From a virus, in IMG/VR virus record IMGVR_UViG_3300046787_000438, positions 88,412 through 152,411 of that record: a stretch of DNA of 64,000 bases. One strand, 5' to 3'. Shown in pieces: positions 42,300 to 60,697 of the stretch; positions within the stretch are counted from its first letter, which is position 1, and each line of letters begins with the position of its first letter. The translations under genes were made by a program, and so were the position numbers. The notes below the pieces were generated by a model. The model searched no databases. It saw only the letters and a list, made by a program, of their open reading frames with translations, and was not told the DNA's origin.

Positions 42300-43733
42300 A
42301 TGGGTAAAAGTATCATGGAACAGATCTCGTCGCTTCCAGATCAGGAGCGATACGAGATTCTCGCTGGCATGGATCCAGATGCTCTCGTCTGGGACTGGTC
42401 CGTTTGGGGTAGACCTGAACAGTTCTGCCCACCTGGAATTGACTGGAACGTTTGGCTAGTTCTTGCTGGTCGTGGTTTTGGTAAAACCCGTCTAGCCTCC
42501 GAATGGGTCCGCGAGCAAGCAAAATATACAACCACTGGACAACGCCGTTTCGCACTTGTTGCTCGTACTGCTGCTGACGTTCGTGACGTTATCGTTGAAG
42601 GCGAGTCTGGAATTATAAATGTCTCGCCTCCTTCCGAGAAGCCACTCTACGAACCTTCGAAGCGTCGTCTAACTTGGCCCAACGGAAATACCGCTACCCT
42701 TTTTACTGCAGATGAGCCTGACTCGCTTCGTGGTCCTCAGTTCACCCATGCATGGGGCGATGAGATTGCAGCTTGGCGTCAGACCCCAGATGCCGCAGGT
42801 ATGACCGCGTTTGACAACTTACGAGTTGGTACTCGTCTTGGGGCAAACCCTCAGATGGTAGTAACTACTACCCCGAAGCGCGTCCCGCTTCTCTACAAAC
42901 TTATTGAAGAATCTCGCACTGATCGATCTGACGGTAGACCACCTAACGTGAAGATTACTCGAGGATCTACTCTAGATAATGCTGGTAACCTTTCTCAGGC
43001 GTACTTGGATACTATTACTGGCGTTTATGAAGGCACGTCTCTAGCTCGTCAGGAGCTTTATGGTGAGATGCTGGATGACGTCGAAGGTGCTCTATGGAAT
43101 GAAGAGATGGTCGAGTCGGCCCGTGAATCCATCTACCCATTTTCGACTCCTCTACGAGTTATTGGTGTTGACCCATCTGTTGCTGAAAATCCCCGCGACG
43201 AGTGTGGAATTGTGGTCGTGGCTTCCTCTGCAGAGGGCGATCTATATAAGCGCAATGCCTGGGTGCTCGAAGATGCGTCAATTCATGGATCTCCAGACAC
43301 CTGGGCGAGAAAAGTCGTTGAGATGGCTCGCAAATGGGGCTGTCCAGTTGTCGCTGAGGTCAATCAGGGTGGTGCATTGGTTAAAAATGCCATTCTTTCA
43401 ATTGACCCAACGATTAAAGTGCTTGAAGTTCATTCAAAATATGGAAAGCAACTTCGTGCAGAGCCAATTGTGCTTGCATATGAGCAGGGACGCGTCCACC
43501 ACGTCGGGTATTTGCAAGATTTAGAGTCTCAGATGTACTCATGGATACCAGAAAGCTCATCGAAATCTCCTGACCGAGTGGATGCACTCGTTCACGCCCT
43601 CACTGCGCTCCTAATTAAGCCACCTCCAGGCTTTTCAGGCGGAAAAATACGTGCAAAGAGCTTCGCTGACCGTAAATTGGGCGTGACTAGCCCAAATAGT
43701 CGTCCTGCTGGAAGAATTTTCAGGGTTAAGTAG
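42300..43733 (+). CDS. Terminase large subunit
   Basis: A 477-residue packaging motor. ATPase: Walker A AGRGFGKT (56-63) and Walker B region HAWGDEIAAW. Nuclease: IGVDPSVA as first metal site, and KSPDRVDALVHALT near the C terminus with the final acidic residue. It cuts and pumps concatemeric DNA into proheads. It starts 4 nt after the preceding stop and leads the head operon. Confidence 0.93.
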   Translation: MGKSIMEQISSLPDQERYEILAGMDPDALVWDWSVWGRPEQFCPPGIDWNVWLVLAGRGFGKTRLASEWVREQAKYTTTGQRRFALVARTAADVRDVIVEGESGIINVSPPSEKPLYEPSKRRLTWPNGNTATLFTADEPDSLRGPQFTHAWGDEIAAWRQTPDAAGMTAFDNLRVGTRLGANPQMVVTTTPKRVPLLYKLIEESRTDRSDGRPPNVKITRGSTLDNAGNLSQAYLDTITGVYEGTSLARQELYGEMLDDVEGALWNEEMVESARESIYPFSTPLRVIGVDPSVAENPRDECGIVVVASSAEGDLYKRNAWVLEDASIHGSPDTWARKVVEMARKWGCPVVAEVNQGGALVKNAILSIDPTIKVLEVHSKYGKQLRAEPIVLAYEQGRVHHVGYLQDLESQMYSWIPESSSKSPDRVDALVHALTALLIKPPPGFSGGKIRAKSFADRKLGVTSPNSRPAGRIFRVK

Positions 43734-44400: not shown

Positions 44401-46128
44401 TTGGGTATTTTCAAGAAAGAAAACGCTAAACCGAGTGCTCCTCGGCAGAACGTTCGCGCTTCGGCCCCTAAAAATGCCACTCGCGTTGCTCCAGGGATTT
44501 CTGTTGACTCTTTTGGCATAGTGTATGCCGAGCCACAGACATTTAACTCACCGCGCCCACTTACCGCTGCTGCCGCGCAGGTAAATCTCCAGGACAAGGG
44601 CGAGGCAGAGCTATTTAAATCACGTAGACAGTCTGCATCGTCAAGCTGGCAGTCAGAGGCGTGGGAATACTACGACTCAATCGGCGAGATCAAATACGCA
44701 TTCAACCTAGTTGCATCCGTTGTCTCGCGTATTAGACTTTATGCTGCTGCTATCTCCAACCCAAACGAGACCCCGTCTCCAATTGACTCTGTAGAGAAAA
44801 TTGATGCTCGTCTATCTGCAGCTGCAACACGCGCACTCGATCGACTAAGTTCTGCATTCGGTGGACAGCCTGGCCTTTTAAAGGATGCTGCCCTAAACCT
44901 CCAGGTTACTGGCGAGTGCTACCTAGTTCAAATACCAGAGCGTGTTGGCTCTGGACTCCCTGAGACATGGGACATGCGCTCAGTTGATGAACTTCAGGTT
45001 GACTCTAAGGGTAATTACGTCATCAACCCTCGCCGTGATGTTGGCGGTGGAAGCTCAATGATGTCGCAGGCGAGTAAGGACATCCTCGCTCTCCCTAAGG
45101 GAGCATTCGTTGGTCGCATTTGGCGTGCCCACCCACGGTACACTCAAGAGGCTGACAGCTCGCTACGCGGACTTCTAGACCTCTGTGCGGAACTATTGCT
45201 ACTCAACCGTACTTTCCGCGCTACGGCCCGTTCTCGCCTCAATGCGGGTGCTTTGTATCTGCCTGATGGTTTGTCAGTAGCTGCGTCTCCAGACCCAGAC
45301 TACCCATACGACGAAGATGGCAACTACAACGAGAATTTCACTGCTGAAGAAGCTGCTGACGACTTCGAAGACCAGCTCATCGATGCAATGACTACTCCAA
45401 TCAAGGACGAGGACTCTGCTAGCGCAGTTGTTCCACTTATCATCCGTGGTCCTGCAGAGCTTGGTGACAAGATCAAGCAGTTCAAGTTTGAGCGTTCATT
45501 CGACCCAGCTCTCGCTCAGCGTGCTGACCGCGTGCTAGAGCGCATCATGCAGGGTCTTGATGTTCCGAAGGATGTTGTAACAGGTCTAGCAAACGTTAAG
45601 TACTCAAACGCACTTCAGATTGACGAAGCACTTTACAAGGCACACATCGAGCCTCTAATGCTCCTTATTGTCGATGCGCTTACCGTCATGTACTTGCGTC
45701 CATACCTAATTGCAAACGGATACTCCGAGGATGAAGTTCGTAATGTTTGCATCTGGTACGACCCATCTCTAGTTGCTACTCGCAATGACCGCGCAGCAGA
45801 TGCTGACATGGGCTTCGACAAGATGGCTGTCTCGTATGACGCATGGCGTCGTGCTCATGGTTTCTCTGAGGCAGACGCTCCAGACCCAACTGAGCTCGCA
45901 CTTCGCCTAGTTGTCAATAAGGGTATGGTTACTCCAGAATTTACTGAAGCCATGCTTGCAGCAGTTGCTCCTGATCTCATGAATAAGATTCGTCAGATCG
46001 CGTCTGAAGCTACTGGCGCAGCTATTCCACCAGAGGTGGAGCAGATGTTGCAAGGCCAGCCTGGCCCTGCAGCCACAGAACCAGCAGCTACTGAAGCTGC
46101 ACCGCCACTAGCAGAACCAGAGGCATAA
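44401..46128 (+). CDS. Portal protein
   Basis: A 575-residue protein at the portal position directly downstream of terminase. The SSWQSEAWEYYDSIGEIKYAFNLV segment, the long helical middle (GEC-YLV, TFRATARSRL) and the C-terminal acidic Ala/Pro-rich tail fit actinophage portals. The start is TTG at 44401, supported by GTAGGGAG 8 nt upstream. Twelve copies form the DNA channel of the prohead. Confidence 0.85.
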   Translation: MGIFKKENAKPSAPRQNVRASAPKNATRVAPGISVDSFGIVYAEPQTFNSPRPLTAAAAQVNLQDKGEAELFKSRRQSASSSWQSEAWEYYDSIGEIKYAFNLVASVVSRIRLYAAAISNPNETPSPIDSVEKIDARLSAAATRALDRLSSAFGGQPGLLKDAALNLQVTGECYLVQIPERVGSGLPETWDMRSVDELQVDSKGNYVINPRRDVGGGSSMMSQASKDILALPKGAFVGRIWRAHPRYTQEADSSLRGLLDLCAELLLLNRTFRATARSRLNAGALYLPDGLSVAASPDPDYPYDEDGNYNENFTAEEAADDFEDQLIDAMTTPIKDEDSASAVVPLIIRGPAELGDKIKQFKFERSFDPALAQRADRVLERIMQGLDVPKDVVTGLANVKYSNALQIDEALYKAHIEPLMLLIVDALTVMYLRPYLIANGYSEDEVRNVCIWYDPSLVATRNDRAADADMGFDKMAVSYDAWRRAHGFSEADAPDPTELALRLVVNKGMVTPEFTEAMLAAVAPDLMNKIRQIASEATGAAIPPEVEQMLQGQPGPAATEPAATEAAPPLAEPEA

Positions 46129-47762: not shown

Positions 47763-50525
47763 ATGCTTGAATTGACCCCACTGATTGCCGATGGTAACTC
47801 TGACGCAGCCCGCCGTGCACGCGTAAAGCTTCAGCCTCGTGACAAGAAGGGCCGCTGGATTCCAACTGGTGCTAGCCTATTCGCGTCTATCAGGGACGCT
47901 GCTGGCAAGGTTTTCCGTATTAATGGAAAAGCTATTGGTGGAACTGCCACTAAGAAGGGCGAGCGCAACGACATCCGCATGCTCGTTGGTAAGGGATACG
48001 AGAGCCTAGGCATCTCACCTAACACAGTTCTTACTGTTAACCCTAAGAATGGTGAGCTTGAGTCTAAGATCAAGCTAAACAGAGACTTTTTGAAGAAAAA
48101 GGGTATCGACCCTGACCTTCAGCACACACTGCCTAAGGCTCTAGACAAGCAGCCTCAGACCCTAGCCGAGATGAAGCCAGAGAAGGCTGACAAACTAGAT
48201 ATCGATCTAGCTTCAGCTGGCCTGACCGCAGATGAAGACAAGACTTTCCGCGCAGAGCGCGACCAGGAGCCACTAGCTAAGCTCCCGCCAGCTATGGAAG
48301 ATCAGGCAGTTACTGGCGAGGATGTGAATGCCTTAGTTGATGATGTACCTGACTTCAAGTCTGGTGACTCAGCTGACTCTGCAATTGCAGATGCCTTGGC
48401 CGATGCATTTTATGGTGGCGACGTACCAGAGCTTGACCAGCTTGTAGATAAGGCCGCGACTCCAGCACCGAAAGCCGAAGCTGTAAAACTTTCAGACCTA
48501 CAAAAGGGCGACATCGTCGCTGGTCCAACTGGTCCGCTAAAGTTCGATCGCGCAGAGAAGCGCATCAACGGGAACTGGGATATTTATGTAGACGATGGTA
48601 GCGGTCGTGGCCCTATCAACATGGTCGCAAAGAGCCACCCGAGCGGTCTATCTGACTCGGATTTCCAGGGCGCTACCATGAAGAGACTTAAGAAGGCAGA
48701 TGCTACTGCAGCACCAGCTACGAAAGCTACTCCTGCAGCACCAGCAAAGCCTTCAGCAACTAAGCCAGCAAAGCCTGCTGCCAAGCCAGCTAAATCACCA
48801 AGCAAGTCTCCAGCACCTAAGAAGGCTGCTGTCCCTGCTGTTGCAACTAAGGTAGACGCAAGTCGCAAGGATGACGGCAAAGACATCGTACCGTCAATCG
48901 TTCCTCAGGAGCAGATGCGCAACATTAAAGTTGCCCAGCTTATGGACGAGAATGGTAAGCCACTATGGACTCGCAACAACACTGGCAAGCGTGTTGCAGT
49001 TGAAGATCCGAATGCGCTATACAACGCCATCCTAGAGAATAACCCCCAGGCTAAGGTGAAAGACAACGGCGCGATTGTTCTAGAGCGCGGAAACTTCACC
49101 GACCACAATGGTGACGTATACAAGTATGAAGTCGCTCTAGCTAAGACTCACGGAAACAAGTACGTTGAGCAGTACTCATTTACCGACAGCAACGGCAAGA
49201 CTCAGAGCTTCCAGCACTACGACTATAAAGACTCTATCGCGGCAATCTACGGTGATAAGAATGGTGTTCGCACGTTCCGTGACCAGATGCTTGGAGTGTC
49301 AATTCCAGGAAAGCAGCCGCCGACTCGCGACACCCTTAACTACTTTGGTAAGGACAAGACTCTTGCTGACCGTATTAGGTACTTCCGCGGAAAGCGTGCC
49401 GAAGGATATACCCCTACACCAGCCGATCTAGCTGATAATAAGAAGCACATCAAGCTACTAACCCCTGAGGAAGTAGTTCAGAAATACCTAAATGGTAGAC
49501 CTGAAGTATTTAACGAATCTGGCGAGGCTGCTGGAACTAAGCTACAGAGTTTCGTTGGCGACGCATGGGAGGCCATCGCAAATGATGACTCTCAGACTTT
49601 CGAACAGATGATGGTTCAGCTTCTTGGAAGACTTCCAGACAACGAGGAGTCTCGCAACCTTCTAGTCAACACCCTGCGTGACGGGATCAAGCAAAAGTTT
49701 AATGGAACTACTAAGGGTCGTTCGCTAGCTACCTTAGCTAACAACATCGAGAAGAAGATTATGCAGGAAGGCTGGGATCTTCGAGACACTAACAAGCGTC
49801 CTTGGACCAGCCGCGACGGCAAGACTATCGTCATGCCAGGCAATAAGGTTCGTTATTGGAACTCTACTGGCGAGTGGTCTATCGGTGAGGTGTCGTCTGT
49901 TAACAAGCCAAAACAGGGCTACGATGACATGGCGACTATTACATTCGCCAACGGCAAGAAGGCAGTACTTAGAACTGACAAGCTAGATGTACTAGGCGCG
50001 GAATTAGACCCATGGTTGAATGAGCACGACCAAGATTCTACAGTCAGCGAATACAAGCCGAGCCCTAAGGGCAAGGAACTTCGCGAAGCCCGAGGATATC
50101 TAAACTTTGGTGACGAGCAGCTTCAGCAGGATGACAACTCTTCGACTCCAACTGGACAGCCAAGCACTACTAATCAAAATGCGACAGCTCCATACCTAGG
50201 AACTGCTGGACAGGATAATAGCTCTAACGCTACTCCTACTCCTGACGCCACTCCTGCCGCTCCCGCTGCACCTGCAGCTCCAGCTCCAGCTCCAGCTCCA
50301 GCTCCAGCTCCAGCTCCAGCTAATGCTCCAGATCCAATAGAGGATATGGAAGCTGGCGACTCCTGGCATAGTGAGGATGGCGACTATCTAGGGTCGTTTG
50401 TAGAAGCTCAGCTAGTCACCTCGGACGATGGGACTACCGAAGCCTGGGCAGTAATCTACATGGATGCTAACGGGGACGAGCAGTTAGAGATAGTTCCGAA
50501 GGGTGAAACCCGCGGCCCAAAATAG
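47763..50525 (+). CDS. Large structural protein; 0-frame part of a -1 frameshift pair
   Basis: A 920-residue protein. The start RVKLQPRDKKGRWIPTG and the basic N-terminal part resemble actinophage proteins placed after the portal. Alanine/lysine/proline-rich linkers (about 310-375) and an Ala-Pro repeat (about 835-855) separate folded parts, two of which look like small beta barrels (about 240-290 and 690-745). The ORF ends at TAG directly after the slippery heptamer CCCAAAA. A fraction of ribosomes would continue in the -1 frame and add 710 residues with protease and ADP-ribosyltransferase-like domains. Confidence 0.75.
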   Translation: MLELTPLIADGNSDAARRARVKLQPRDKKGRWIPTGASLFASIRDAAGKVFRINGKAIGGTATKKGERNDIRMLVGKGYESLGISPNTVLTVNPKNGELESKIKLNRDFLKKKGIDPDLQHTLPKALDKQPQTLAEMKPEKADKLDIDLASAGLTADEDKTFRAERDQEPLAKLPPAMEDQAVTGEDVNALVDDVPDFKSGDSADSAIADALADAFYGGDVPELDQLVDKAATPAPKAEAVKLSDLQKGDIVAGPTGPLKFDRAEKRINGNWDIYVDDGSGRGPINMVAKSHPSGLSDSDFQGATMKRLKKADATAAPATKATPAAPAKPSATKPAKPAAKPAKSPSKSPAPKKAAVPAVATKVDASRKDDGKDIVPSIVPQEQMRNIKVAQLMDENGKPLWTRNNTGKRVAVEDPNALYNAILENNPQAKVKDNGAIVLERGNFTDHNGDVYKYEVALAKTHGNKYVEQYSFTDSNGKTQSFQHYDYKDSIAAIYGDKNGVRTFRDQMLGVSIPGKQPPTRDTLNYFGKDKTLADRIRYFRGKRAEGYTPTPADLADNKKHIKLLTPEEVVQKYLNGRPEVFNESGEAAGTKLQSFVGDAWEAIANDDSQTFEQMMVQLLGRLPDNEESRNLLVNTLRDGIKQKFNGTTKGRSLATLANNIEKKIMQEGWDLRDTNKRPWTSRDGKTIVMPGNKVRYWNSTGEWSIGEVSSVNKPKQGYDDMATITFANGKKAVLRTDKLDVLGAELDPWLNEHDQDSTVSEYKPSPKGKELREARGYLNFGDEQLQQDDNSSTPTGQPSTTNQNATAPYLGTAGQDNSSNATPTPDATPAAPAAPAAPAPAPAPAPAPAPANAPDPIEDMEAGDSWHSEDGDYLGSFVEAQLVTSDDGTTEAWAVIYMDANGDEQLEIVPKGETRGPK

Positions 50526-50561
50526 ATAGGGCTGTAGCTCCAGGAACACCTGCTGCAGCCC
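50516..50561 (+). promoter_or_regulatory. Predicted programmed -1 ribosomal frameshift signal
   Basis: Slippery heptamer C-CCA-AAA (50516-50522) in the required X-XXY-YYZ phase, directly followed by the 0-frame stop TAG (50523-50525). After 6 nt a stem-loop begins: 50529-50537 pairs with 50553-50561 (9 bp, one G-U), with an inner 4-bp stem 50541-50544/50549-50552 and a 4-nt loop. The -1 frame is open without a stop from here to 52654. Confidence 0.8.
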
Positions 50562-52654
50562 CGAAAGCCGCTAAAAGCTTACAGGGCGTAACATTCTCTA
50601 AGTCTCTATCTGGGATCAGAGAGTTGAAGACTGGCGCTACCCTAGGTAGACCTCGAACTACCCCTATTGACCCCAGCTTCCATGATTTGAAGAATATTGA
50701 AGCTCATATCTTCAGCACCCTTCCAGCTTCAGTAGATCTAGACGGTCTAGACGACAAGATCCAAGCCGTCCGTTCTGCTAGAACTGACATGTCTACAGAT
50801 ATCAACGTAGACCCAGCGAAGCAGTCGATCTACGAGGCAGCGCTTAAGGATCTTCTAGACTTCCACCACGATCAGTTCGATAAGGGCGAGAGCTACACCT
50901 TCCCGCTATCACTGATCAAGTCAGATCAGGCACTAAGCCCACGTGGCATTGCTAAGATTGCTGCTGCCTCTCATGGTAGAGACAGGTCTGGAAATGCTCC
51001 TAAGTCTGTAGACACTCTAGTTGACGAGTCTGTCAAAAACTTTAGAGACAAAACCCCTAGAATCAATGATGTCTTGTCAGCTCTCGGCAGCGAGTGGCAG
51101 GCACAGGGAGCTAAAGAGTATCACGATGAACTTACTAGTAAGTTCTCTAAAAAGTATTCTGACCTAGGTCTCCCTCGCGCAGAAGCTGATTTTAGGTCTA
51201 AGGTTAGAGCATCGAACATGCTCAACAATCAGGCAGGCAATCCAGCGCTTGCCCAGGTAAAAGTATCATCTAGCTCGGCCAACGCGGATATTTTCGTCTA
51301 CATGAACGATAACGGCGACGGCACATTAACGCCAAGCCTAAGTGGCGCTCAGGCTAAATACGTGAATGATGCAATCGCTAAGTCGCGTGCCTTCAGATTC
51401 AACAAGGACAAGACCACTGTACACGCGCTAGGCAATTCAACATATCTACCGCCAGCAGTTGCCAGCACTATCGGTGATAGCGATGCAGCATTTACCTACT
51501 TCGGGGGTGACGGGGTTTACCTATATCCAGACAGAGTTTCTGGCATTTTAGGAAAGCTCCCAGATGACCCTAAGTTCTACTCGACTGACATAAAGACCGA
51601 AGCAGACGCCTTCAACCACATCGTCGTCCATGAAACTGGGCACCTTCAGATGTACAAGCTATGGGGCGACGACAAGAATAGCGGTAGAGCTGCACTAGCT
51701 GCAGACATGGCTAAGCTCAATGTTTCTCAGGATGTTGGCACCTACTCGCGCAATAGTGCCTCAGAGAGTTTCGCGGAGCAATACGCTAAGTATCTACTAA
51801 CTGGAGATGCCTCTCAGCAGTTCCTAGATCTGCTCTCTTCTAAGGGCCTAACAAAAGCCCAGATAAACAAGAAGTGGCGAGACGCATACACTGCTAAGTC
51901 AGCTCAGCACGCAGCGTTCATAGATAACTTAGTTAAATTTGCCTCCGACTTCGGAGACGGAACTAATCCAAATGATCCTGAAAACACCATTGATTATGGA
52001 ACTAAAGATAGCCTTTATGGATCTAAATGGGCAAGTAAGGTTGCCAGACTAGTCGGATATCGTCAGAATCTGCCAGCAACTGTCTCGGCCATTGACCCTA
52101 GTACTCACCATGTTATTTATCGTGGAGTGGATGCTTTCGGCAATAAGACTGGCTGGGACCTGCACAATGACTTTAGAACTAAGTCAGAGCCATGGTATGG
52201 ATTCGGAATCTTCGGAGATGGTCAGTACTTCAGCACCATAGAGTCTACAGCAAGAAGCTTTGGCTCCGTAGTGGCAAAGATGGGCATAGATAAGAATGCT
52301 AATTTGGCATCCTACTATTACAACAGAGGCGGAAAACCCGTTATTGCTAAGAACGGATCTCAGTTCAACATAGAGGAATTCTATGCTGACCTATATAGCA
52401 ACATAATTCCAGACTATATCCGCAATGAAATAGACCCAGACATGTCTGACCAAGAAGTAGCCAGACTGGCTCGAAAGATGCTGAACTCTGCGGGCCTCGG
52501 AGGAGGAAGTGTGCTAGATCAAGATGACGCTGCAATCGTTGCTGGTTGGGCAGGGTTCGATGGACTAGAGGTCGTCAGAGGTGGCGAGTCATATTTCGTG
52601 GTTCTAAATAGAGGAATAATCCAAATGTTGCTACCTAAGGGATATACAAGTTAG
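50522..52654 (+). CDS. -1 frame extension: zincin metalloprotease plus ADP-ribosyltransferase-like domains
   Basis: Reached by -1 frameshift from the 47763 gene, giving a 1630-residue fusion; a TTG at 50624 is a weaker independent start with no clear ribosome binding site. Around residue 335 (from 50624), VVHETGHLQMYK is a zinc-protease HExxH, followed by an ESFAEQYAKYLL helix that could supply the third ligand. The C-terminal 170 residues look like an ADP-ribosyltransferase: YRGVDAF (R motif), FGIFGDGQYFSTIESTARSFG and a terminal GGESYFVVLNRG with the candidate catalytic Glu. Virion-borne transferases are injected with phage DNA in other phages; here that role is inferred. Confidence 0.75.
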   Translation: MDRAVAPGTPAAAPKAAKSLQGVTFSKSLSGIRELKTGATLGRPRTTPIDPSFHDLKNIEAHIFSTLPASVDLDGLDDKIQAVRSARTDMSTDINVDPAKQSIYEAALKDLLDFHHDQFDKGESYTFPLSLIKSDQALSPRGIAKIAAASHGRDRSGNAPKSVDTLVDESVKNFRDKTPRINDVLSALGSEWQAQGAKEYHDELTSKFSKKYSDLGLPRAEADFRSKVRASNMLNNQAGNPALAQVKVSSSSANADIFVYMNDNGDGTLTPSLSGAQAKYVNDAIAKSRAFRFNKDKTTVHALGNSTYLPPAVASTIGDSDAAFTYFGGDGVYLYPDRVSGILGKLPDDPKFYSTDIKTEADAFNHIVVHETGHLQMYKLWGDDKNSGRAALAADMAKLNVSQDVGTYSRNSASESFAEQYAKYLLTGDASQQFLDLLSSKGLTKAQINKKWRDAYTAKSAQHAAFIDNLVKFASDFGDGTNPNDPENTIDYGTKDSLYGSKWASKVARLVGYRQNLPATVSAIDPSTHHVIYRGVDAFGNKTGWDLHNDFRTKSEPWYGFGIFGDGQYFSTIESTARSFGSVVAKMGIDKNANLASYYYNRGGKPVIAKNGSQFNIEEFYADLYSNIIPDYIRNEIDPDMSDQEVARLARKMLNSAGLGGGSVLDQDDAAIVAGWAGFDGLEVVRGGESYFVVLNRGIIQMLLPKGYTS

Positions 52655-52663
52655 GATTTATGT

Positions 52664-53143
52664 ATGACTACTCTATCTAAGGATCAGCTAAAGCGATCAG
52701 CCAGATACTCTCAGAGGTTTGCTGAAGTTCTCTCGCAGGCTATTCCATCTGACTACTATAGCTCTGACGGCCAAACCTGGGATCCAAAGGCAGACTGGAA
52801 CGAGAGCCCAGAGTTCATCAAAACTTCGGATGAGTTCAAGTCTGCCCTGACGGTCGCTGTAAATGCTGCAGTAGATGAAGGGTCCGAAGAGCAGGACGTT
52901 CTCCCAGAACTAATGGACTTAGCAGTTAGAGTAGAGACGCGTAACAATGACTACCTGAAGCCTAAGCCAGAAGGTCGCCAGCACCGTACGAAAATCACTT
53001 ACTACAGTGAAGATTTTATAAATAAGCCAAAAGAAACGACAATAGACTTGTCCACTATGGAGGATTCAGAGCTAGAGCAGCTTGTCCTTCAAATTCCAGA
53101 AGCCGTTTCTGAACTCGTATACCGCGAATTATACGGGAAGTAG
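52664..53143 (+). CDS. Hypothetical protein following the transferase-like gene
   Basis: A 159-residue acidic protein with no recognised domain. It starts 9 nt after the transferase stop. The position makes a partner, chaperone or immunity-type role thinkable, but the sequence gives no direct sign. Confidence 0.65.
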   Translation: MTTLSKDQLKRSARYSQRFAEVLSQAIPSDYYSSDGQTWDPKADWNESPEFIKTSDEFKSALTVAVNAAVDEGSEEQDVLPELMDLAVRVETRNNDYLKPKPEGRQHRTKITYYSEDFINKPKETTIDLSTMEDSELEQLVLQIPEAVSELVYRELYGK

Positions 53144-53224: not shown

Positions 53225-53599
53225 ATGGCAACTAGTAGCATTAGCGACGTATGGTTTTACGTCAACCCAGAAAACGAGCAGATTGATGCCGTTTTGTGCT
53301 ACTTTCCTCTTGGTATGTCCATTAGACAGGGCAAAGACTGGGAAATCACCACTAAAGAGGACTCTGGCATCTACGATGTCCTAACTAACCACAACGTATA
53401 TCAGCTCGACTGGGACTCAGACACTAAGGTCATCGACGATTCTTTCGACTTCGATAACTATGACGATGTTACCCACATTGCACTAAAGATGTATGACAAC
53501 GGGGAGCTAAACCTAGCTGAGCTTAAGAAGTACGCTGAGCTAATCTACACTGCATCTAGCGCCGAGGATATGCCTCAGGCGGAAGATGCCAAGGAGTAA
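53225..53599 (+). CDS. Hypothetical acidic protein
   Basis: A 124-residue acidic, beta-rich protein; no family assigned. An 80-nt gap with a TAAAAT box (53167-53172) precedes it, so it may have its own promoter. Its stop is followed directly by the protease gene, whose ribosome binding site lies inside this ORF. Confidence 0.65.
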   Translation: MATSSISDVWFYVNPENEQIDAVLCYFPLGMSIRQGKDWEITTKEDSGIYDVLTNHNVYQLDWDSDTKVIDDSFDFDNYDDVTHIALKMYDNGELNLAELKKYAELIYTASSAEDMPQAEDAKE

Positions 53600-53600
53600 A

Positions 53601-56600
53601 GTGCCAAAATTTCTAGGTATTGCTAATGACTTGGCAATTTTCACTAACAACGGTCTATATGCTGCTGTAAACACTTCCACAAATTTTGTAGAGGACTACA
53701 CCCAGTCTGAGCTATCTGCAATCGTTCAGTCGGAATTCCTTAAGACACTGCAGGTAGTTGTAGAAGATTCAGTGGTAGAGCTAGCCGAGGCAGCTCTGCT
53801 ATCTATCGAGTCAATTACTGCAGGAGGCGCACCTGCTAGCCGTCTCTATACTATTCCTGGTGGCGTTCAGGCAGAGGCTAAGAAGGCACTTAAGTGGCGT
53901 CACGAATCTAAGCGTGGCGGAACTCCAGTCGGCCTAAACACTGCTCGCACTCTTGCAAAGGGTGGCCAGATTGGCATCGAAAAGGTTCGCCACATCGCTA
54001 AGTATTTCCCTCGTCACGAAGTTGACAAAAAGGGCAAAGGCTGGGAGCCAGGCGAAGAGCACTTCCCATCTAACGGCCGCATCGCTTGGGCACTCTGGGG
54101 TGGCGACGCTGGACAGCGCTGGGCCTCTGCAATTGTAGAGCGTGAAAATAAGAAGGCTCTTACATCTGGCGGATACGCACTGCCAGGCTATGAAGAAGAT
54201 GCTGCAATCTACACCTCTGAAGATTCATATGGTGCAGACATCTCTGCCTTCAAGGAAGCTCACGAGCTTGACCCATACGAAGGTCCAGAATTTATGGTCA
54301 GAGTACGTTTAGACGACTCTGGCATTGACCGTTTATATAAAATTGACATTGACGGTCAGGTGTATCTGTGGGACGGCTCGGCATGGGACAACCTAGGTCA
54401 CGTTGATGGTGACGTTTACTCGTATGACCAGGCTTTAGACGATCCGTACGACACCTGTGAGAAGACTCACGTAATTATTGACCCTTCTTCAGCAGTAGTT
54501 ATTTCGGCATTCCTACAGGAGCGCCCGTTCCAGCCAGTTACCCTAGACGAGATCGATCCAGAAGAAGCTCAGCTAATGAGTGACGGGTTGGCTGACGAAG
54601 ATTTCACAATGATCGATAGAGTCATGACTGCTGCAGGAGAGCCAGTAGCTAAGCCTGCAACTGCCACTGACGGTAACTACACTCCTGAAGAGCGTGCGAA
54701 GAATACCCAGGCGCAGCCGCGCGATGCTGGTGGTCTCTTTGTTAAGGTAGGAAGCCGTACTGTAGTTGGTGGAGACGCTAGACGTGGTTCTGGCACGATC
54801 ACCGACATCGACACCACCACTGGTAAGGTTCGCGTAAGACTTGACTCTGGCAAGGTCATAAACGTAGATGCTGGGTTTACCCAGGCCGAGTCTAGTGTTG
54901 ACGCACCGACAATGGTCCCTGGCAGAGATTCACTGCCTCCAATTGATTTTGATTCAATCCTAGGCGAGCCTAGAACCCCTATTGATTCTCCTATAGCCCA
55001 TCTACCAGGCACTCTTCCTAAGTTGACTACTAAGGATATCCACTCTCTAATCAATGGCTTGCCTGCATACTACAAGAGCTCTAGAGACTACAAGCTACTT
55101 CCAGATAAGCCAAAAGGCATGAAGGCTTACGACAAGAAGTACATAAAAGAGCGTTACGGTATTAACGCAGCCGCTACCCCTGAAGATGGAGCTATAGCTT
55201 CGCCTGCAGAGTCAGACGTCACCCCAAAATACCTAGCACTTGTATCGCCTGACGACATGACTGCCGTTATGGATGTTGTCGCATTAGTGCCAGCTAGTTC
55301 AACTTCGACCGAGACAGTACTGTATGAGCGCAGAGAGGGTAAGTGGCAGCCAAACGGTCAGATTCTAAGTGACCTAAAGTCAGCGACACCGCCTCCAGTA
55401 ATCGAGCTCGACACTCAGGAAATTCTGAACGATGTGTTGAAGCAGGCCGATGATGCTTCTAAGCCAGTACAAGCTTCTGCATACCAGTTCTCGATTTTCT
55501 GGGAGCGAGTTGTAGAGCCACTACTAGCGGCTCGTAGAGAGAACTTTGGCTACAAAGACACGGATTCATCTCTGACTGAACACTCCGATGAGGACCCGTG
55601 CTGGGACGGGTATAAGCAGATCGGCTTTAAGGATAAAGACGGTAAGCATGTACCTAACTGCGTAAAGGCAACCTCTACAATTGCTGCAGCTGGCGGATTT
55701 GATCGTAACCGAGGCAATGCAGAGGCTCTTCGAGAGTACTGGACCCACGGTAAGGGTGCTGCCAAGATCCGCTGGGGAACTCCTGGTGACTGGACCCGCT
55801 GCGTTCGTAATCTTTCAAAGTACATGGGACCTCGTGCAAAGGGCTACTGCCAGCTTCGTCACAAGGAAGTTACTGGTGTATACACTGGAAGCCGAATGAA
55901 CCCAGGGCACAAGAACGGCTCTAAGAACTTCTCTTCTCTATATCAGAGCGAGCAGCAGTTCGCTGACACCATGATTGAGAAGGCCCGTCTATCGGCAATT
56001 GCAGCAGATGCTCGCGAGAAGATTAGCCTAATTGCTTCAGCTGACTCGGGCGTTGCTGGCTCTAAATTTTCGATCCCTATGCTAGTACCAGAGGGCGTCG
56101 AGTCTGGTGACGGACGTAAGTTCGCAGAAAACGCGATCTCTGTTCGTGAACTTCCAGTTCCGCTTCTATGGCAGATCAAGACTGGTGCTGGCCACGATGG
56201 TTCCGTTGTAGTTGGTCGAATCGACTACATCGAGCGTATCGAAGGCGGCATGGGAAATGCTTATGGTGTATTTGACAACGGTCCTTACGGCCGTGAAGCA
56301 GAGCGCCTAGTGCGTAACGGCTTCCTACGTGGAGTTTCGGTTGACCTAGACAAGTTCGAGGCCAAAGAAGATAAGCAGCCTAAGGAAGAGATGGCTGAAG
56401 ATGGTGGCCAAGAGATAGGTAAGGATAAACTTACCATAAACAAGGCCCGCATTATGGCTGCTACAATTGTAGCTAAGCCAGCATTTCAAGAATGCTCTAT
56501 TTTATTGCAAAAAAGCGGGGATCAGGAGGATAACGTGACCCCAGAAGACGGCGTATACGAAGAGACTACACAGGATTTTTCAGATCTAGAGCCGATGCTT

Positions 56601-57722
56601 GCATCTGGGTTCCTGGAGTCTGAGATTCCTATGACTCCTCCAGCTGATTGGTTCGAGAACCCAGGTTTCACTAAGGCAACCCCATTGACAGTAGATGCTG
56701 ACGGCCGTGTATACGGACACATCGCTGCGTGGAACGTGAACCACATCGGACTACCTCGTGCAACCAAGCCACCTCGCTCGCGTAGCAAGTATGCATACTT
56801 CCACACTGGAGTAATTCGTACCGAAGCTGGTACCGACGTTCCAGTAGGTCAGCTAACTCTCGCTGGCGGACACGCCCCTCTTAATGCTGATGCAATGTCA
56901 GCAGCTAAGCACTACGACGATACAGCTTCAGCTGTAGCAGACATTCACGTTGGTGAAGATGAGTACGGTATCTGGTGCGCTGGGTCCCTACGTCCAGGAC
57001 TGGAAGAAATGCAAATTCGCGCTCTACGTGCGTCTGCTCCTTCAGGTGACTGGCGTCCAATTCAAGGTTCACTAGAACTTGTGGCAATTTGCCAGGTAAA
57101 CGTTCCAGGCTTCCCAACCGCTCGCGCAATGATTGCATCTGGCAAGATTCTTGCCCTTGTTGCAGCAGGCGCTAACTACATGGCACTAATGAAGAGCCAT
57201 GCAGTAGTTACACTCACAAACAAGGCTGACTTGCTAGGTCAATTAGCCAATACAGCTCCAGACCTCAAGTCTAGAGTTAGAGAGGCTAAAAAAGCGATGC
57301 GTGAAGCAAACCTACAGGCCATCACCGCTAGTGCAGCAGATCTACGCGATCGTGCTCTAGTAGCGGCTGCAATTGCAGAGCTTGCTACCATTCCAGAGAA
57401 AGAGCGCCTAGCTCTTGCTAAGGAAGGTAAGGCAATGCCTGATGGTTCATTCCCTATTCGTAATGAAGAAGACCTTAAGAATGCGATTCACGCTTACGGT
57501 CGCGCTAAGGCTTCTGACCGCAGAGAGGTGCGCAAGCACATCACCAAGCAGGCTCGCTCACTCAAGCGTGCTGACCTCATCCCTGAGCAGTGGAAGAATG
57601 CTGACTCTATGGAAGCTGCGGCAAAGGTAGCATCTATGCGTGCTACCATCACTGCATCTGCAAATAGCGAGGCGGTGGTGGCTGCAGCCCCAAAAGTGAT
57701 GAGATCTCAGACGCAGATTTAA
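53601..57722 (+). CDS. Prohead (capsid maturation) protease polyprotein; 0-frame part of a second frameshift pair
   Basis: A 1373-residue protein with GTG start 4 nt after AAGGAG (ATG at 53586 would overlap the upstream gene). Around residues 90-195 lies a head-protein domain (KALKWRHESKRGGTPVG...GRIAWALWGGDAG). Residues about 700-770 are Cys/Trp-rich. Residues about 810-980 match the actinophage capsid protease: LPVPLLWQ, GHDGSVVVGRI, YGREAERLV-x-x-GFLRGVSVDLD and ATIVAKPAFQEC. C-terminal modules follow (residues 1000-1200 and AMPDGSFPIRNEEDL). It would process the capsid and scaffold regions during maturation. Confidence 0.82.
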   Translation: MPKFLGIANDLAIFTNNGLYAAVNTSTNFVEDYTQSELSAIVQSEFLKTLQVVVEDSVVELAEAALLSIESITAGGAPASRLYTIPGGVQAEAKKALKWRHESKRGGTPVGLNTARTLAKGGQIGIEKVRHIAKYFPRHEVDKKGKGWEPGEEHFPSNGRIAWALWGGDAGQRWASAIVERENKKALTSGGYALPGYEEDAAIYTSEDSYGADISAFKEAHELDPYEGPEFMVRVRLDDSGIDRLYKIDIDGQVYLWDGSAWDNLGHVDGDVYSYDQALDDPYDTCEKTHVIIDPSSAVVISAFLQERPFQPVTLDEIDPEEAQLMSDGLADEDFTMIDRVMTAAGEPVAKPATATDGNYTPEERAKNTQAQPRDAGGLFVKVGSRTVVGGDARRGSGTITDIDTTTGKVRVRLDSGKVINVDAGFTQAESSVDAPTMVPGRDSLPPIDFDSILGEPRTPIDSPIAHLPGTLPKLTTKDIHSLINGLPAYYKSSRDYKLLPDKPKGMKAYDKKYIKERYGINAAATPEDGAIASPAESDVTPKYLALVSPDDMTAVMDVVALVPASSTSTETVLYERREGKWQPNGQILSDLKSATPPPVIELDTQEILNDVLKQADDASKPVQASAYQFSIFWERVVEPLLAARRENFGYKDTDSSLTEHSDEDPCWDGYKQIGFKDKDGKHVPNCVKATSTIAAAGGFDRNRGNAEALREYWTHGKGAAKIRWGTPGDWTRCVRNLSKYMGPRAKGYCQLRHKEVTGVYTGSRMNPGHKNGSKNFSSLYQSEQQFADTMIEKARLSAIAADAREKISLIASADSGVAGSKFSIPMLVPEGVESGDGRKFAENAISVRELPVPLLWQIKTGAGHDGSVVVGRIDYIERIEGGMGNAYGVFDNGPYGREAERLVRNGFLRGVSVDLDKFEAKEDKQPKEEMAEDGGQEIGKDKLTINKARIMAATIVAKPAFQECSILLQKSGDQEDNVTPEDGVYEETTQDFSDLEPMLASGFLESEIPMTPPADWFENPGFTKATPLTVDADGRVYGHIAAWNVNHIGLPRATKPPRSRSKYAYFHTGVIRTEAGTDVPVGQLTLAGGHAPLNADAMSAAKHYDDTASAVADIHVGEDEYGIWCAGSLRPGLEEMQIRALRASAPSGDWRPIQGSLELVAICQVNVPGFPTARAMIASGKILALVAAGANYMALMKSHAVVTLTNKADLLGQLANTAPDLKSRVREAKKAMREANLQAITASAADLRDRALVAAAIAELATIPEKERLALAKEGKAMPDGSFPIRNEEDLKNAIHAYGRAKASDRREVRKHITKQARSLKRADLIPEQWKNADSMEAAAKVASMRATITASANSEAVVAAAPKVMRSQTQI

Positions 57723-58375: not shown

Positions 58376-58479
58376 TAAAATTATCCATAGGTGGAGCGCC
58401 TCACGCCTTGTGCGTCGAGTCCCTCGGCCTTGACTGTAAATCGGACACAACCGTGTCCAATACTAACTGGCCTAGGAGG
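58376..58479 (+). promoter_or_regulatory. Promoter-like box and structured leader of the major capsid gene
   Basis: TAAAAT (58376-58381) precedes a leader of about 100 nt with a perfect hairpin GGACAC-AACC-GTGTCC (58443-58458) and ends with a strong AGGAGG (58474-58479). No -35 box is evident. Leader structure may raise mRNA stability for this highly expressed gene. Confidence 0.5.
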
Positions 58480-58483
58480 TACA

Positions 58484-60697
58484 GTGTACGACCAGATTAA
58501 GACTCAGCTAGACACTATCACTGAGCTTAGCGATGAAACACTCGCAGAGCTTCAGGCAGATATTGTCAGCCAGTTTGAAATGGTTGAGGGTGAAGACCCG
58601 ACTCCTGAGACAGTTGATGCTATGACGTCACTAGCTGACTCTCTTGACATCGTTCGCGGCGAGCTTGCAAACCGCGAGGCTATGACTGCTGAACTAGCAG
58701 CCAAAGCTGCCGAGGCAACCGCCCGTGTCAAGGGTGAAGTTGCTGGCGACGAGGGAGAAGAAATGGCTATAGACGAAAACCAGCCAACAGAAGAGGAAAC
58801 TCCTGCAGAGGACCAGCCAGTGGAAGAAACTCCAGTGGACGAGGCTCCTGTAGAAGAAGTTCCTGCAGAAGAGACCGCCGCAGCTGAGGAAACTCCAGCT
58901 GAGGAAGAAGCTCCTGCCGAGTCTGAGACTGAAGAGACCCCTGCTGATGAAGCAGAGGAAACTTCAGAGGAAGCTAAGAAAGAAGAAGAAGACGGAACAG
59001 AGAAGGCCATGAGCGCTTCTGTTGAAACCGAGACTACTTCTGATGTAGCTACTACAGATGAAGCTGCTGTTACTGTAGCTCCAGTCGAGGCTGAAGCATC
59101 AGTCGTTGAGACTGTTGCTGCGGCCGAGGAGATCGTAGAGGCATCCGCAGATGTTTCAGAGGTTGCTGAGCTTTCAGCTACCGACGAAGCCGCTGCAGAA
59201 GCTGTAGCCGAGACCGATGAGGTCGAGGAAGCATCAACCGCTCAGGAAGACGGTTCTGAACTATCAACCACAACCGAGGAAGCCACTGAGCTTTCTACCG
59301 ATGAGACTGCAGAAGCAGTAGCAGAAGTAGAGACAGCTGCAGAGCTTTCTTCAGAAGCAACTATTGAAACATCAACCGCTCTTGTAGAAGAGCAGAATCA
59401 GGAGCAGGCAGTGACCGCTGCAGCAGAACAGCCTTTCGAGGCCCCAGCTGACCGTCAGCCTGTAGTTCAGGAAACCGTAGCACCAGTAGCAATTACTGCT
59501 GGCGCTGACATCCCAGGCTACAGCGCGGGAAGCACCATCAACGATCTAAACGAAGTTGCAACTCTTATGGAGAAGCGCCTTCACTCACTACGCCGTGTTA
59601 ACGGTGGCGACGGAGAACAGCACATTGTTGCTTCATTCTCTACTCAGTACGCTGAGGACCGCTTCCTAGGCACCGACGCTGAGGCTAACACTGCTAAGAT
59701 CAACGCGAGCACCGCTCTTGTTGCATCTGGTGGTCACGGTGCCCCAGTCGAGACCAAGTACGATATCTTCGGTATTGGGTCAACCACCAACCGTCCAGTT
59801 CGTGACGCACTTCCTAAGTTCCAGGCAGACCGTGGCGGTATCCGTTACGTAACCGCACCTTCATTCGCTTCTGGCGACTATGCAGATGCTGTTGGCGTAT
59901 GGACTGCTGCAGTTGATGAGGACCCGCAGGGTGCAACTAAGTCATCTCTAACCGTTACAGCTGCTGCTGAGAACACTGCCGTCACCGACGCAGTTACTCT
60001 ACAGCTACAGTTCGGTAACTTGATGACCCGCGCGTATCCAGAGCTAATCGCTCGCCACAACGAGCTTGCTCTAGTACAGCACGCTCGCGAGGCAGAGGTT
60101 AACTTGCTTACCAAGATTGGTGCAGCTTCGACTGCAGTTACTTCTGGAACCATCATTGGTTTTGGTCGCGACTTCCTAGTCTCAGTACGCAAGGCTGCTG
60201 TTGCCTATCGTTCACGTCACCGTATTGCTTCAACTACTAAGTTGACCGCAATCGTTCCTGACTGGATCTTCGATGCAATGGCTTCTGACCTAGCTATCTC
60301 AATGCCTGGAGACAACACCCTTGGTGTCACCAAGTCTGAGATCGAGGGCTACCTAGCTCTAAGCAACGTTAACCTAGTTGCCTCTCCTGACCTAAACTAC
60401 TACGGTGCACAGGCTGGTTCAGCTGCGCTTACCGAGTGGAAGGACAGCTTCGTCTGGTACCTATTCTCAGAGGGCACATTCTTGTTCCTTGACGGTGGTA
60501 CTCTAGACCTAGGTATCATCCGCGACTCATCACTAGTTGGAACTAACGACTACAAGATGTTCGTTGAGACCTTCGAAGGTATCGCAAAGGTTGGTATCGA
60601 ATCACTAGCAATCACCCAGACCGTTAACATTAACGGTGTGGCTGCTGCTCTTCGCGACACCACTGGTGGCGCAACTGCAGCTGCTGTCGAGCTCTAA
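58484..60697 (+). CDS. Major capsid protein with long acidic N-terminal region
   Basis: A 737-residue protein with a GTG start after AGGAGG. Residues 1-90 are helical (YDQIKTQLDTITELSDETLAEL) as in scaffold/delta domains of actinophage capsid proteins. Residues about 90-330 are Glu/Ala/Pro/Thr-rich low complexity. Residues about 340-737 hold the HK97-type core (YDIFGIGSTTNRPVRDALPKF...IPDWIFDAM-type segment, FVWYLFSEGTFLFLDGGTLDLG). The acidic part probably acts as internal scaffold removed by the upstream protease. Confidence 0.82.
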   Translation: MYDQIKTQLDTITELSDETLAELQADIVSQFEMVEGEDPTPETVDAMTSLADSLDIVRGELANREAMTAELAAKAAEATARVKGEVAGDEGEEMAIDENQPTEEETPAEDQPVEETPVDEAPVEEVPAEETAAAEETPAEEEAPAESETEETPADEAEETSEEAKKEEEDGTEKAMSASVETETTSDVATTDEAAVTVAPVEAEASVVETVAAAEEIVEASADVSEVAELSATDEAAAEAVAETDEVEEASTAQEDGSELSTTTEEATELSTDETAEAVAEVETAAELSSEATIETSTALVEEQNQEQAVTAAAEQPFEAPADRQPVVQETVAPVAITAGADIPGYSAGSTINDLNEVATLMEKRLHSLRRVNGGDGEQHIVASFSTQYAEDRFLGTDAEANTAKINASTALVASGGHGAPVETKYDIFGIGSTTNRPVRDALPKFQADRGGIRYVTAPSFASGDYADAVGVWTAAVDEDPQGATKSSLTVTAAAENTAVTDAVTLQLQFGNLMTRAYPELIARHNELALVQHAREAEVNLLTKIGAASTAVTSGTIIGFGRDFLVSVRKAAVAYRSRHRIASTTKLTAIVPDWIFDAMASDLAISMPGDNTLGVTKSEIEGYLALSNVNLVASPDLNYYGAQAGSAALTEWKDSFVWYLFSEGTFLFLDGGTLDLGIIRDSSLVGTNDYKMFVETFEGIAKVGIESLAITQTVNINGVAAALRDTTGGATAAAVEL

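Follow-up and report, generated by a model that had tools for sequence, protein, structure and literature searches.

A conserved −1 frameshift signal predicted to append a zincin-like and ADP-ribosyltransferase-like module to a phage head-region protein

The stretch of DNA analysed here (the window, which makes up the last 64 kb of an uncultured virus record 152 kb long) holds an open reading frame (the N-part) ending on a slippery heptamer, followed in the −1 frame by a second long ORF (the C-part). That this CCCAAAA junction is a programmed −1 ribosomal frameshift appears almost certain, and frameshifting and an effector role of the long product are, taken jointly, likely. The slip signal, kept through deep divergence, would govern the attachment of enzyme-like cargo to a head-region protein.

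The junction and its conservation

The elements of the junction are the following:

47763..50525, + strand: 0-frame ORF (N-part), 920 aa, dN/dS 0.05-0.14
50516..50522, + strand: slippery heptamer C_CCA_AAA, with Pro CCA in the P-site and Lys AAA in the A-site, invariant in 11/11 records
50523..50525, + strand: 0-frame stop TAG adjoining the heptamer, TAA in L034 and L035
50523..50528, + strand: spacer TAGATA from heptamer to stem, stop included, 6 nt in all members
50529..50561, + strand: stem-loop, probable frameshift stimulator, with an invariant outer helix GGGCTG/CAGCCC and an inner helix that varies in sequence and is paired in all
50522..52654, + strand: −1-frame ORF (C-part), 710 codons from ATA 50522, stop at 52652-52654, predicted to be expressed as an extension of the N-part

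The original prediction described CCCAAAA in the X-XXY-YYZ phase, with TAG adjoining and a stem-loop after 6 nt, and a direct reading of the sequence agrees throughout, the 0-frame ending in ...GGC CCA AAA TAG. The hairpin at 50529-50561 (GGGCUGUAGC UCC AGG AACA CCU GCUGCAGCCC, 10 + 3 bp) has a stability of -21.4 kcal/mol (z = -3.2), which was equalled by 0/200 shuffles, and just 0.8% of the window's 53-nt stretches fold as stably. Its distance from the heptamer, constant in all members, lies inside the range of about 5-9 nt expected for −1 frameshift structures. The absence of a good start in the 710 open codons of the −1 frame, also part of that prediction, is borne out as well: a stop lies 12 nt before the heptamer, the frame is then open through 52654, and the earliest possible start in the window (TTG 50624) is not conserved, the first −1-frame start codon being located 66 to 396 nt past the heptamer depending on the member, with no conserved position. 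Read-through of the stop was rejected, as a second 0-frame stop follows 12-123 nt past the first. Purine-rich AGGG/GAGG sequences were seen 5' of the heptamer in most members (weak in L015; judged by eye, unscored), and no tRNA gene that might favour slipping was found in the 64-kb window.

The same junction occurs in 10 further IMG/VR contigs, none of them from an isolated phage, so that all 11 records with a C-part hold an intact signal, consisting of CCCAAAA, a stop (TAG; TAA in two), the 6-nt spacer and GGGCTG...CAGCCC; the check in relatives suggested at the outset thus found heptamer and stem kept in each of the ten. A protein search with the −1 ORF gave four relatives, an exact DNA pattern scan gave four further contigs, a profile of the −1 ORF recovered the same eight, and three more came from a profile of the 0-frame ORF, a C-part being present in two of these. 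Six of the ten relatives are therefore independent of the junction search, having been found by protein searches alone, and the protein-profile scans found no C-part copy without the signal. The ten are not all fully independent, as one pair comes from a single sample (3300047300) and shares 94% identity. The C-parts have diverged to about 31-45% identity despite the unchanged junction, and in the most distant contigs (L034 and L035), where TAA replaces TAG and Asn replaces Asp as the fourth junction residue, the heptamer, the spacer length and the outer stem are unchanged. No host-integrated copy was found by a GTDB genome scan with the N-part, and the C-part gave no match among isolated phages (DNA search, tblastn).

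The outer helix never varies and is therefore uninformative by covariation. As the MAFFT DNA alignment gapped the hairpin, pairing in the inner helix was counted on ungapped hairpins of equal length: the seven available have two-sided changes at four pairs (T-A/G-C, C-G/T-A, G-C/C-G and G-C/C-G), every sequence being paired there. In-register pairing reaches 38/42 cells, against at most 20/42 when slid by 1-3 nt, these cells not being independent events because the pairs were chosen from predicted folds and the sequences are related. When the inner segment was shuffled with the outer stem fixed, 6% of the shuffles were as stable as the native hairpin in L034, and 0-1.6% in nine members.

Codon usage at the junction is constrained as well. 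The residues P K I D R A are each encoded by a single codon in all 8 aligned members (6/6), against 3/148 of the other invariant residues in the same members; the corresponding hypergeometric p is about 5e-9, a value whose weight is lowered because 4/8 of these members came from the DNA pattern, and the four that did not show the same invariance when taken alone. The first base of the heptamer is always C, though it falls in Gly, Ser, Val or Leu 0-frame codons. In close pairs, the dN/dS range given above applies to the N-part and the C-part alike, and both frames are under purifying selection.

The two halves and their neighbourhood

The genes and domains surrounding the junction are listed below:

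42300..43733: terminase, upstream of the N-part
44401..46128: portal, upstream of the N-part
51596..51805, + strand: zincin-like core (HETGH 51629-51643; ESFAEQYA 51764-51787)
51965..52651, + strand: ADP-ribosyltransferase (ART)-like C-terminal domain (YRG ... GIFGDGQYFST ... GFDGLEVV)
52664..53143, + strand: small ORF of 159 aa directly behind the C-part, with the motif YYSxDGxTWDxxA
53586..57722: 1378-aa protein with prohead-protease-like similarity, downstream of the C-part
58391..60697: major head protein (MCP), downstream

The order portal, N-part, C-part, small ORF, protease, MCP is kept in relatives as far as their contigs extend. Among named phages, the portals closest to that of the window belong to Actinomycetia phage DSL-LC01 (a lake-water assembly) and to phages of Microbacterium and Arthrobacter, and the host is for this reason probably an actinobacterium. 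These named phages carry single ORFs of 1764-3289 aa at the place of the N-part, with which they have an N-terminal RDxxGRWIxMG region in common (profile E 5e-14 to 3e-6); one of them, Mimi gp77, has UvrD helicase domains and a HExxH motif near its end, and the site is therefore one occupied by large multidomain proteins. Pumpernickel gp82 gives a weak PI3/PI4-kinase match at its C-terminus. The motif RDxxGRWIxMG (or RGADGRFIHKG) is found near the N-terminus of several actinophage head-operon proteins, at 47838-47870 in the window and in L009-L013, and is a possible prohead targeting or cleavage signal.

The N-part consists of an N-terminal RDKKGRWIPTG, Ala/Pro-rich linkers and a conserved small C-terminal domain whose last residues, PK, lie at the slip site. 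Tandem CTCCAG repeats (50260-50322) encode its Ala-Pro run, whose length varies among close relatives. Its initial description as a head protein agrees with the place between portal and protease/MCP and with the shared N-terminal motif, and finds no counterpart at the level of families: neither N-part nor C-part matched a Pfam or PHROG family, and PDB sequence searches returned nothing significant. In one contig (L036, 7989-12101), a relative of the N-part lacks the frameshift end and is instead joined, in one frame, to another tail, which has HELWH; judged by this arrangement, it represents the same gene place built without a frameshift.

The C-part comprises a helical region, the zincin-like HExxH with the downstream ESFAEQYA, and the C-terminal domain. 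HE[TS]GH and the downstream E are invariant or nearly so in the alignment of 8 members, and zincins have been described in polyvalent proteins (PMC5512222). Modelled alone, the ART-like domain reaches pLDDT 79 and pTM 0.77, and the full-length C-part (pLDDT 72, pTM 0.47) is without a usable PDB match. The top PDB fold matches of the domain are a cyanophage ejectosome protein, 6kyf, MbcT (two chains), eIF3d, PARP10 and tankyrase 2, with weak E-values of 0.009 (best) to 0.9 across these seven. Five of the seven have the ART fold (6kyf, both MbcT chains, PARP10 and tankyrase 2; E 0.03-0.9), 6kyf being an anti-CRISPR that we take to be AcrIF11, an ART. A viral structure library gave a match to an ART-PolyVal-like protein at probability 0.90. 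Pfam ART-PolyVal (PF18760) did not match the C-part at E <= 10, nor was there a match to MuF or to the ADP-ribosyltransferase exoenzyme family (PF03496), and the name ART is therefore a structural one. The protease/ART call of the original prediction is in this way upheld by the HExxH...E motif and by a weak but consistent resemblance of the modelled C-terminal domain to ADP-ribosyltransferases, and is not echoed in Pfam.

L034 (11288-14230) and L035 (9638-12652) carry an insert of about 280 residues that separates the zincin-like from the ART-like part; its sequence (DAWLANWD...VDPGGSLLFRAQG) suggests a possible kinase-type fold.

Between the window and L002/L003, identity is 99% for the portal, 95-98% for the protease and only 59% for the ART-like domain, an indication that this domain changes fast or has been swapped. 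The 159-aa ORF is also fast-changing (79-81% identity in the same comparison); it is present in all ten relative loci with a C-part and absent in L036, which has no C-part, and may encode a cognate chaperone or inhibitor. A fast-changing ART-like domain next to such a small ORF would fit an effector and its partner, as a lead only.

Proposed mechanism and competing explanations

Ribosomes translating the N-part would arrive at C_CCA_AAA right before the stop, and some of them would pause at the stem-loop 6 nt downstream, allowing both tRNAs to slip back by one base and pair anew with CCC AAA, after which translation would go on in the −1 frame. Two products with 920 N-terminal residues in common would result, a short form and a form of about 1630 residues to which the zincin-like and ART-like module is added. 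The shared N-part probably brings the short and the long form alike into the prohead, and the slip rate would set the count of effector-bearing copies per capsid. On infection the long form, whole or as a fragment released by its own zincin or the prohead protease, would be ejected along with the phage DNA and modify proteins of the host, in the manner of T4 Alt.

The analysis establishes the signal, its conservation, coding selection on both frames and the position in the genome; for the rest of this scheme we infer a useful slip rate, a virion location, injection and the enzyme activities. The role of the frameshift is probably to ration host-modifying cargo per virus particle. More tentative, and somewhat more doubtful than probable as a whole, is the extended proposal in which injected effectors are dosed by the slip rate, cargo cassettes (ART, kinase-like insert) are exchanged behind a fixed junction, and the small ORF protects the producer or chaperones the cargo. 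Rationing of this kind would be a simple possible answer to how a phage limits bulky cargo per capsid, with one heptamer as the handle. Gene callers can be expected to split such proteins, since the C-part lacks its own start codon; in annotations it would either be cut short at a false start or stand apart from the N-part. Neither a conserved frameshift adding a zincin/ART module to a head-region protein, nor a frameshift serving to dose injected effectors, was found in the open-access literature searched.

A real frameshift might instead yield a long product with a structural or processing function (a scaffold or an internal maturation protease), the ART-like domain being inactive or of another fold. 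The position of the gene among head genes, the weak fold E-values and the proposal that zincins process multidomain polypeptides (PMC5512222) are in keeping with this, but the ART-like domain changes fastest, as expected of one that meets host targets, and L034, L035 and L036 insert or swap tail domains as polyvalent effectors do, so that we regard a structural or processing product as unlikely.

Production of the C-part by termination-reinitiation, at ATA 50522 or TTG 50624, is very improbable. The stop does overlap an invariant ATA, with some purine-rich sequence upstream, but reinitiation would not explain why CCC and AAA never vary, why the spacer is always 6 nt or why the stem covaries. 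ATA is, moreover, a very poor start codon. Initiation at TTG 50624, which the original prediction had set against its own reading, is excluded as a general mechanism because this codon has no counterpart in several relatives (L002, L004, L015, L017 and L020) while the upstream PKIDRA is conserved. Neither the always-C base nor the codon invariance would be expected under reinitiation or gene decay.

Transcriptional slippage on the A run, for which the AAAA before the stop might speak, deserves still less credence: there are four A residues only, and slippage of the polymerase needs neither an invariant CCC nor a covarying stem at 6 nt, both of which are features of ribosomal slipping. An assembly error at the short A run of a metagenome, or a decayed gene, has a negligible chance of accounting for a junction repeated in 10 other contigs from several samples, with low dN/dS in both halves and a TAG to TAA change that is still a stop; that repetition by itself excludes the frame-merging sequencing error considered in the original prediction.

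Comparison with known frameshifts and effector fusions

Programmed ribosomal frameshifting, the reading favoured here, is mainly known in phages for producing two forms of a tail chaperone or capsid protein. The lambda G/GT tail assembly chaperone likewise comes in a long and a short form through a −1 shift close to where its upstream ORF ends, but its genes, place and size differ, and the part added here is a 710-residue enzyme-like module. Assignment of the present pair to G/GT, a small ORF pair just before the tape measure gene, was rejected on account of its 920 + 710 residues and its portal-protease/MCP place.

Frameshifted head proteins also include T7 10B and that of PSA. Another example is the major head protein of Lactobacillus phage A2, as cited in PMC10885494. 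In all three, as here, one head gene yields two products through frameshifting, but the frameshift there extends the major capsid protein, whereas the extension described here is enzyme-like and belongs to a non-MCP gene. The original view was that attaching effector domains to a head-region protein by a frameshift would be unusual; head-gene frameshifts as such exist, and what is unusual is the addition of an effector-like module.

The giant proteins of Microbacterium phages (Pumpernickel gp82, Zooman gp70), of the Arthrobacter phage Mimi (gp77) and of DSL-LC01 occupy the same portal-to-protease/MCP place and carry the RDxxGRWIxMG region, but they are uninterrupted ORFs in which the C-part has no clear homologue. 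The MuF-VIP2 ART fusions of Microbacterium phage clusters EH and EJ (PMC7302621) also place an ART on a minor head protein, predicted to be virion-located, but the fusion there lies in one frame, and the MuF and VIP2-type families give no match here. The unconfirmed frameshift predictions of PRFect (PMC10885494) include VIP2 and MuF-like genes, and similar junctions may therefore exist.

Closest in content are the polyvalent phage proteins (Iyer et al. 2017, PMC5512222), presumed to enter the host from the virion together with the packaged phage DNA. They combine a zincin-like peptidase and an ART-like domain in one large polypeptide, a make-up that the long product, with its conserved zincin motif and weak ART-fold matches, may share, and they are likewise coded beside portal/terminase genes. 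Their domains, in contrast, share one frame, and the word 'frameshift' does not occur in PMC5512222; in the present case the predicted catalytic half would be added by a −1 frameshift, and two products would therefore be made.
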